Assembly: GCA_025210295.1 (NCBI GenBank)
Contig: JAOASC010000015.1
Coordinates: 1-64,000, forward strand
Reading direction: 5' to 3'
Origin: Flavobacteriales bacterium
Lineage (GTDB): Bacteria > Bacteroidota > Bacteroidia > Flavobacteriales_D > Parvicellaceae
Length of the DNA stretch: 64,000 nt
Positions within the stretch are counted from its first letter, which is position 1, and the number at the start of each line of letters is the position of its first letter. Of the stretch, positions 23,395-24,083 are shown one piece after another. The position numbers and the translations under genes were made by a program. The notes beneath the pieces are model-generated. The model saw nothing but the letters and a program-made list of their open reading frames with translations. It ran no database searches and had not been told where the DNA came from.

Positions 23395-23469
23395 GGGCGA
23401 TTAGCTCAGTTGGTTCAGAGCACCTGCCTTACAAGCAGGGGGTCGTAGGTTCGAATCCTACATCGCCCA
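23395..23469 (+). tRNA. tRNA-Val (anticodon UAC), copy 1
   Basis: 75 nt. Acceptor GGGCGAT/ATCGCCC, discriminator A. Anticodon stem CCTGC/GCAGG with loop CTTACAA, anticodon TAC. T-arm GTAGG-TTCGAAT-CCTAC. Identical to copy 2 over its whole length. Confidence 0.96.
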
Positions 23470-23490
23470 CAACATAACCTCTTATTAAGA

Positions 23491-23565
23491 GGGCGATTAG
23501 CTCAGTTGGTTCAGAGCACCTGCCTTACAAGCAGGGGGTCGTAGGTTCGAATCCTACATCGCCCA
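23491..23565 (+). tRNA. tRNA-Val (anticodon UAC), copy 2
   Basis: 75 nt, identical to copy 1, which ends 21 bp upstream. The bases CCA follow directly (23566-23568), so the CCA end may be encoded here. Its 3' 30 nt are the start of a 178-bp direct repeat whose second copy begins at 23886. Confidence 0.96.
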
Positions 23566-23713
23566 CCAAAAACAAAAGCTTCACCTTAAACAGTGAAGCT
23601 TTTTTTATACCCCTATATCATGAATTTATTTTACACTTATATTCTATACTCTGAAAACTTAAATCAATACTATATCGGATATACTGGTGACAGTTTAGAC
23701 AATAGAATCAAAA
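23536..23713 (+). repeat. 178-bp direct repeat, copy A
   Basis: It runs from the variable region of tRNA-Val copy 2 through its 3' end, the terminator, and the first 31 codons of the GIY-YIG gene. It matches 23886-24063 at a constant offset of 350 bp. I find two differences: 23552 t versus 23902 c, and 23662 a versus 24012 g. Confidence 0.95.
23574..23606 (+). terminator. tRNA-Val terminator
   Basis: Stem AAAGCTTCAC (23575-23584) with GTGAAGCTTT (23593-23602), loop of 8, ending in T7. It separates the tRNA transcript from the GIY-YIG gene. A second copy lies at 23924-23956. Confidence 0.88.
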
Positions 23714-23877
23714 AACATAATGCAAACCACAAAGGATTTACAGGAAGAACAAAGGACTGGAAAATAGCCTATTATGAAACCTTTGATAATAAAACTGATG
23801 CTCTAAAAAGAGAAAAACAAATTAAGAATTGGAAATCGAAATCCATGATTATAAAACTTATCAGAGCATCCCGATAA
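23620..23877 (+). CDS. Small GIY-YIG domain nuclease
   Basis: 85 residues from the ATG at 23620. A longer frame opens at a GTG at 23593, but that GTG lies inside the tRNA terminator. GIY-YIG core: YTYIL (5-9), YYIG (17-20), catalytic Arg29 in LDNRIKKH, and Glu65 in ALKREKQIKNWKS, the same order as in the UvrC/homing-nuclease fold. It is the single-domain type (about 80-100 residues) abundant in Flavobacteriia. The stop codon lies inside a short hairpin TCCCGAT-AAA-ATCGGGA, and 8 bp after the stop a duplicate tRNA-Val 3' half begins. A mobile or homing role is inference. Confidence 0.88.
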   Translation: MNLFYTYILYSENLNQYYIGYTGDSLDNRIKKHNANHKGFTGRTKDWKIAYYETFDNKTDALKREKQIKNWKSKSMIIKLIRASR

Positions 23878-23885
23878 AATCGGGA

Positions 23886-23918
23886 GGGTCGTAGGTTCGA
23901 ACCCTACATCGCCCACCA
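23886..23918 (+). pseudogene. tRNA-Val 3' fragment
   Basis: 33 nt corresponding to the end of the variable loop, the full T-arm GTAGG-TTCGAAC-CCTAC, the acceptor 3' strand ATCGCCC, discriminator A and CCA. The 5' half of a tRNA is missing; the nuclease gene end is joined here instead. It cannot form a tRNA on its own. Confidence 0.92.
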
Positions 23919-23923
23919 AAAAC

Positions 23924-23956
23924 AAAAGCTTCACCTTAAACAGTGAAGCTTTTTTT
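23924..23956 (+). terminator. Duplicate of the tRNA-Val terminator
   Basis: Exact copy of 23574-23606 within repeat copy B. Here it would end transcripts of the GIY-YIG gene. Confidence 0.85.
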
Positions 23957-23969
23957 ATACCCCTATATC

Positions 23970-24083
23970 ATGAATTTATTTTACACTTATATTCTATACT
24001 CTGAAAACTTAGATCAATACTATATCGGATATACTGGTGACAGTTTAGACAATAGAATCAAAAGCAATCCAATTATAAACTAA
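23970..24083 (+). pseudogene. Truncated GIY-YIG nuclease
   Basis: ATG at 23970. 31 codons equal the intact gene except Asn15 to Asp, then the frame diverges (SNPIIN) and stops at 24081-24083. It keeps YTYIL, YYIG and Arg29 but loses the rest of the fold including the catalytic Glu, so it cannot be an active nuclease. Confidence 0.9.

Follow-up and report, generated by a model that had tools for sequence, protein, structure and literature searches.

Results

A nuclease gene between two copies of a tRNA-Val 3′ part

How does the gene of a small nuclease come to lie between an intact tRNA gene and a second copy of the 3′ part of that tRNA, and is the segment a mobile unit that targets tRNA genes, as an earlier note on this DNA had suggested? 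The locus lies in the window, by which we mean the whole stretch of 64,000 nucleotides that was analyzed, from contig JAOASC010000015.1 of a Flavobacteriales bacterium. The note had described a 178-bp direct repeat at an offset of 350 bp with two mismatches, and its coordinates were confirmed, the mismatches being exactly two (23552, T/C, and 23662, A/G). The features of the locus are as follows.

23395..23470, + strand: intact tRNA-Val (TAC), first of a tandem pair (ARAGORN; Rfam, 77 bits)
23491..23568, + strand: intact tRNA-Val (TAC), second copy, adjoined by the element (ARAGORN; Rfam, 77 bits)
23519..23535, + strand: segment B, the anticodon arm CCTGCCTTACAAGCAGG, swapped for a palindrome in the displaced copy; putative target site
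23536..23568, + strand: segment C, from the variable region through the T arm to the 3′ acceptor strand with CCA; the 178-bp repeat starts here
23536..23713, + strand: 178-bp direct repeat, first copy
23571..23606, + strand: terminator-like hairpin T1 (inverted repeat), arms 23571-23584 and 23593-23606, then a T run
23620..23877, + strand: GIY-YIG nuclease gene, 85 aa (PF01541, E=2.3e-17)
23861..23868, + strand: a′, TCAGAGCA, a piece from the D-stem/anticodon side of the tRNA, joined to the nuclease ORF at its end
23869..23885, + strand: palindrome P, TCCCGATAAAATCGGGA, in the place of the anticodon arm
23886..23918, + strand: displaced segment C (tRNA-Val 3′ part with CCA)
23886..24063, + strand: 178-bp direct repeat, second copy
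23921..23956, + strand: terminator copy T2 (inverted repeat)
23970..24083, + strand: truncated second GIY-YIG copy, 37 codons, the first ~31 common to the intact gene (PF01541, 22.7 bits)

According to ARAGORN, both tRNA-Val genes are intact, and they are identical to each other. The repeat starts at the exact 3′ edge of the anticodon arm. The 17 nt of this arm are missing from the displaced copy, where the 17-nt palindrome takes their place with 8 more tRNA nucleotides before it; segment B is also the segment replaced in other tRNA-Val elements. The nuclease stop codon falls within the palindrome. As the note had correctly recorded, it ends 8 bp before the displaced 3′ part at 23886, and the second nuclease copy is truncated. 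The note's description of a duplicated tRNA-Val "3′ half" has to be widened: the 3′ part is repeated, but the displaced piece exceeds a 3′ half since the 8 nucleotides and the palindrome precede it. The GGG microhomology that it saw at the junctions is present but is simply how the tRNA variable region begins. Aligned to the displaced piece (23847-23911), the full-length tRNA model of Rfam scores 19.7 bits, below its cut-off of 29, and tRNA is the only credible Rfam family in the region. The GIY-YIG gene is the only gene between the repeats, where an integrase gene is absent, and the domain search matched PF01541 only, a Y1 (HUH) transposase being absent. For the second, truncated unit, the simplest account is a tandem duplication of one unit, the second copy being truncated afterwards.

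The nuclease is a separate ORF that follows the terminator and is not housed in an intron or intein. Its PF01541 domain, motif tyrosines, and catalytic Arg and Glu place it in the GIY-YIG superfamily: residues Y7, Y18, G20, R29 and E65 are present and conserved in alignments of homologues, with R29 nearly invariant in one of two alignments. The structure model (pLDDT 88) resembles the UPF0213 and Slx1 nuclease fold. Among homologues, dN/dS is below 1 in 133 of 133 pairs with a median of 0.165, where the pairs are not independent and the values are rough for very close pairs; judged from these values, the nuclease is under purifying selection. The window protein gave no defence-family match and thus no support for a defence system, and one homologue gave weak partial defence-family matches only, one of them to a homing-endonuclease model. 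A phage origin was rejected, as tblastn at 1e-5 found no relative of the window protein in 50,697 phage records.

Related nucleases stand behind tRNA genes across the Bacteroidota

The note had held that small GIY-YIG genes recur beside tRNAs in Flavobacteriia and had proposed looking for tRNA pieces near such genes and for empty tRNA-Val sites in relatives. We find the same arrangement across the Bacteroidota, with strong enrichment rather than absence of tRNA sequence. A profile of seven nucleases, A1, matches 141 of 245 genomes of the order and 212 of 392 genomes of the phylum, and the loci followed up are its best-scoring matches. Among these loci, which are not fully independent because a few entered twice and some are near-copies, a same-strand intact tRNA lies within 400 bp upstream of the nuclease at 65 of the 98 order ORFs with enough flank (opposite strand, 1) and at 52 of the 57 loci outside the order (opposite strand, 0). 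A T-arm motif on the same strand stands up- or downstream of 86 of the 98 order ORFs. On the opposite strand the motif stands upstream in 2 cases and downstream in 2. Outside the order, a T-arm is found at 56 of the 57 loci; control ParE loci hold 11 T-arms in 103.7 kb. Distant nuclease relatives (YhbQ-like and others), which serve as a negative control, have no tRNA nearby. At mirrored loci (L211, L213, L194, L112, L107, L101 and L082) the nuclease lies 5′ of the intact tRNA, and L213 and L194 have initiator-Met gene pieces with palindromes upstream.

The window genome itself holds further copies. On contig C47, a second stand-alone GIY-YIG gene follows tRNA-Met and has, on both flanks, the tRNA-Met 3′ part preceded by the palindrome TCAGCCCTAGGCTGA. 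The contig ends C11:1-360, C22:1-170, C24:1-210 and C32:1-620 (L178-L185) carry palindrome, tRNA-Asp 3′ part and terminator, arrayed on C11 and C32, and no nuclease gene was seen in the examined stretches of these four contigs. These tRNA-Asp copies are likely non-autonomous units that broke the assembly. C22 also bears an apparent intact tRNA-Asp, and on C24 (L183) an ORF beside an interrupted tRNA-Asp copy resembles, by eye, a phage-type integrase; a genomic island there may use the same tRNA-Asp as its attachment site. A Candidatus Yanofskybacteria contig (L262, ~1960-2290) has a 51%-identical GIY-YIG gene within a long inverted repeat (TTGTCCCGAT... / ...TCGGGACAA). No tRNA was found near this gene, which is possibly a tRNA-free relative of the element.

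Nuclease lineages follow the tRNA isotype

On a tree of 130 nucleases, built on about 90 columns and with about half of its forks unresolved, the tRNA isotype changes 36 times, compared to a mean of 92.8 and a minimum of 86 after shuffling. On the same tree, taxonomic family changes 52 times (shuffled, 73.5) and genus 93 times (111.3). As far as this tree resolves, tRNA isotype sorts the nucleases more strongly than taxonomy does. The tRNA thus predicts the nuclease better than taxonomy, a pattern that agrees with horizontal movement among tRNA genes of one kind. Clustering is strong for Val, Asn, initiator Met, Phe, Ala and Gly, while elongator tRNA-Met hardly clusters (8 changes; shuffled, 9.7), and some isotypes are hit by several unrelated nuclease lineages. 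The closest relatives of the window protein, at 52-64% identity, stand at tRNA-Val or its pieces in Pedobacter cryophilus, Polaribacter, Mucilaginibacter gossypiicola and Flavobacterium, and the tRNA-Val relatives in named genomes have the palindrome at the same place as the window. One relative in this set, from Mesohalobacter halotolerans, stands at tRNA-Arg. Within the window's own family, other nucleases share only 32-45% identity with the window protein.

A palindrome interrupts the displaced tRNA piece

The last 14 nt of the intact upstream tRNA recur between -24 and +161 bp from the nuclease stop at 43 of 66 loci, compared to 0 of 66 on the opposite strand and 2 of 1320 shuffles. In the combined set this repeat follows the nuclease at 83 of 123 loci, a recognizable displaced 3′ end being absent at about a third. 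A palindrome foreign to the tRNA, with arms of at least 6, is present in 39 of the 43 displaced pieces; the same search gave 371 hits in 2150 dinucleotide shuffles and 175 in 909 equal stretches of the same loci (17-19%). With a laxer arm of 5 the figure is 80 of 83 displaced pieces, the controls applying to arms of at least 6 alone. The place of the palindrome within the tRNA is typical of the isotype: it occupies the anticodon arm in Val and Ala, lies behind the anticodon in initiator Met and in the T arm in Asp and Phe, and takes two places in Asn. Among 70 distinct palindromes, 41 start with TCC and end with GGA, and across lineages the arms read TCCGTC/GACGGA, TCCGCC/GGCGGA or TCCCGC/GCGGGA, so that place and pairing are kept while the sequence varies. 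This covariation of the arms is descriptive only and partly circular, as the palindromes were selected by pairing.

The exact palindrome pattern occurs at 8 places in the window genome, all of them in tRNA 3′ copies or the element; the other 7 places lie near contig ends in tRNA-Asp 3′ copies. With the pattern so confined, we rejected a purely genome-wide REP as the explanation of the palindrome. Genomes G120 and G092 each have about 20 occurrences of the pattern, many of them not at tRNA copies; in other places the palindrome also forms terminator stems. The palindrome is thus not exclusive to the element. Interspersed copies of the exact palindrome TCCCGATAGCTATCGGGA number about ten or more in each of G120 and G092, also off tRNA genes, and the reversed control pattern is absent from both genomes.

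Empty sites, displaced terminators and stacked units

We compared filled sites with empty ones in relatives. The tRNA-Val pair upstream of parE is found without the nuclease in two same-genus relatives, and these are empty sites of the kind that the note had proposed to look for. The tRNA-Phe locus has two intact units and a truncated third in G160 and none in G279, G287 and G167. At the orthologous tRNA-Leu locus of genus g34, 4 of the 15 alleles with the tRNA recovered are filled and 11 are empty. The nuclease gene is therefore present or absent at the same locus among relatives for tRNA-Leu, tRNA-Val and tRNA-Phe. Downstream of tRNA-Phe in G279 (L156), the empty site holds what by eye is an apparent REP-associated (RAYT-like) transposase fragment.

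In the filled tRNA-Leu locus of G135, it is the terminator behind the displaced 3′ end that matches the one in the empty G140 (score 51; shuffle maximum, 28) and runs into the same flank, whereas the tRNA-adjacent terminator has no match to G140 (score 20; shuffle maximum, 26). By this alignment, the native terminator has been moved to the far side of the nuclease and the one beside the tRNA has been gained, a direction established at this one locus only. In g35 (G160) the result is opposite, with the tRNA-adjacent terminator resembling that of the empty relatives, and the tRNA parts are too alike to show which copy is native. When the terminator behind one 3′ end is compared with that behind the other, identity is at least 90% at 43 of 83 loci and under 70% at 22 of 83. 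Since G135 has both gained a terminator and displaced one, one local tandem duplication is not enough. The note had offered a plain tandem duplication as the simpler alternative; this fits the second, truncated unit of the window, where we keep it, and was rejected as the full explanation for the class. It had also held that an ancestral single-copy locus revealing one ordinary tandem duplication would speak against a mobile unit. Empty orthologous loci do exist, but G135 and G140 are inconsistent with one such event.

Units can also accumulate. At its tRNA-Leu locus, G133 has two different nucleases stacked, the distal one broken. Arrays of five or six units, which are near-identical tandem repeats, occur in single-contig genomes and are thus not a product of contig joining.

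Discussion

A probable homing-type element that would restore its target tRNA

The best explanation, and one that we consider probable, is a homing-type element that is specific to one tRNA isotype and leaves the tRNA it targets restored. Its unit of ~350 bp would consist of the tRNA 3′ part C, the terminator T, the GIY-YIG gene, the tRNA piece a′ and the palindrome P, and would insert inside, or equivalently just after, a tRNA gene of one isotype; since C is repeated, a position within C looks the same as one just behind the tRNA. The 5′ part of the host gene and the unit-borne C would together form a complete tRNA, so the tRNA stays intact, while the native 3′ part and terminator would be pushed downstream behind the palindrome. 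The nuclease may cut the cognate tRNA gene at the segment whose place P takes, or near it. Repair of the break from an element-bearing template would copy the unit in, which would be intronless homing as in phage SegB; out-of-register repair could then give the tandem arrays. As the most speculative step, P might keep the displaced copy from being recut, since otherwise annealing of C with C would delete the nuclease. Comparison among genomes carries the association with tRNA genes, the isotype lineages, the repeated C, presence and absence, terminator displacement, stacking and selection, and lends support to the tRNA-targeting mobile unit that had been suggested. In intron-type homing the target sequence is destroyed in element-bearing alleles; here the tRNA is regenerated. 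The empty relative G033 has a tRNA-Val identical to that of the window. The tRNA beside the element thus retains the presumed target, no classical homing site is lost, and the element must somehow avoid cutting its own locus.

The nuclease might instead recognize structure and not tRNA sequence: a structure-specific, Slx1-like enzyme would act on the TCC...GGA palindrome or on extruded tRNA arms, the palindrome would be the end processed for movement or array growth, and tRNA genes would be targeted as hairpin-rich DNA. The retention of palindrome place and pairing while the sequence varies would agree with this, as would UPF0213 and Slx1 being the closest solved relatives and the Yanofskybacteria nuclease lying inside a palindrome with no tRNA found nearby. 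We nevertheless think it rather unlikely: nuclease lineages that track the tRNA isotype need sequence recognition, some displaced pieces are without a clear palindrome, in some genomes the palindrome is an interspersed repeat or terminator stem away from any nuclease, and the apparent arm covariation is in part built into how palindromes were picked. A role in the cell tied to tRNA, such as tRNA cleavage under stress, anti-phage defence or repair of tRNA loci, with the tRNA pieces as regulatory or decoy RNAs, is quite improbable in our view. Purifying selection would suit it, and the strict same-strand position behind the tRNA could give co-transcription, but a terminator stands between the tRNA and the nuclease, enzymes of the GIY-YIG type generally act on DNA, and selfish DNA typically shows what is seen here, namely patchy presence, empty sites, decayed copies and arrays. 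The defence-family searches, with their one match of a homologue to a homing-endonuclease model, point the same way.

There is also the view that the nuclease is a passenger with no mobility of its own, trapped when host recombination duplicates a tRNA 3′ end locally. The 43 loci with near-identical terminators, the near-identical tandem repeats of the arrays and the second unit of the window, which is clearly a tandem copy, are what such events would leave. Local duplication does not account for isotype-matched nucleases common to unrelated species, for the 22 loci with divergent terminators, for the new tRNA-adjacent terminator and displaced native one in G135, or for the two different nucleases in G133, and we hold this view to be very improbable.

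Meaning

The recurrence of this arrangement suggests a family of very small mobile elements that has not been described before. We found no papers on GIY-YIG genes at bacterial chromosomal tRNA genes in a search that covered few subscription journals and little of bioRxiv. It is possible, though on balance doubtful, that the element belongs to a categorically new, hairpin-guided class of mobile DNA, ~350 bp long and integrase-free, with a single Slx1-like GIY-YIG nuclease, a TCC...GGA hairpin and self-healing tRNA docking. That reading would also take in isotype-specialized lineages, non-autonomous derivatives made of a hairpin plus a tRNA tail, tandem growth, and a spread over much of the Bacteroidota. 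One small gene family would account for many repeats and tRNA fragments in the Bacteroidota that have lacked an explanation, and for some of the contig breaks that fall at tRNA genes there, and bacterial chromosomes would join the known settings of gene-end-replacing endonuclease elements. The nucleases would form a natural series of small enzymes that apparently tell tRNA genes apart by isotype, and they pose the question of how an enzyme that would cut an essential gene leaves the host that carries it unharmed. For annotators, apparent pseudo-tRNAs and short GIY-YIG ORFs near tRNAs would be parts of one element.

Comparison with known systems

The closest solved structures to the window protein are those of the UPF0213/YhbQ type (1zg2, 1ywl) and Slx1 (6seh); the more distant relatives of the window protein (L265-L288, minus the truncated L286) differ in standing without a nearby tRNA. 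Tyrosine-recombinase elements that integrate at tRNA genes likewise duplicate the tRNA 3′ end as flanking repeats and regenerate the tRNA, but the element described here lacks an integrase, has one nuclease gene in ~350 bp, and carries a palindrome that interrupts the displaced copy. With REP/RAYT systems (PMC3733652 for REPs) it shares short palindromes, a small DNA-processing enzyme and non-autonomous copies; its enzyme is a GIY-YIG nuclease and not a Y1 transposase, and it is anchored in tRNA genes.

The likeness to free-standing endonucleases goes further. SegB of T-even phages (PMC13096335, PMC2988022) is also encoded by a small free-standing GIY-YIG gene beside tRNA genes. In T6 it cleaves within tRNA genes and drives tandem amplification of the tRNA-segB segment (PMC13096335), which, as in the window, includes truncated nuclease. 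Cutting of the donor allele by such enzymes is typically inefficient (PMC13096335), and free-standing endonucleases need not insert at their own cut site (PMC2988022). Unlike SegB, which is a phage enzyme, the element is bacterial and chromosomal, and its protein has no match in the phage records searched; SegB lacks the duplicated, palindrome-marked tRNA 3′ end and is not known as isotype-matched lineages. In PMC3630166, mobile endonuclease ORFs of fungal mitochondria, in atp6, atp9, cox2 and nad3 (the Allomyces case being cited there), are described as carrying a replacement 3′ end of the host gene and displacing the native one. The present element likewise has the 3′ end of its host gene duplicated on both sides of the nuclease gene. 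Those ORFs differ in that they lie in mitochondrial protein genes, are mostly LAGLIDADG, and insert a 3′ end of divergent sequence, whereas the tRNA 3′ ends here are nearly identical; the passages of that article consulted report no palindrome.
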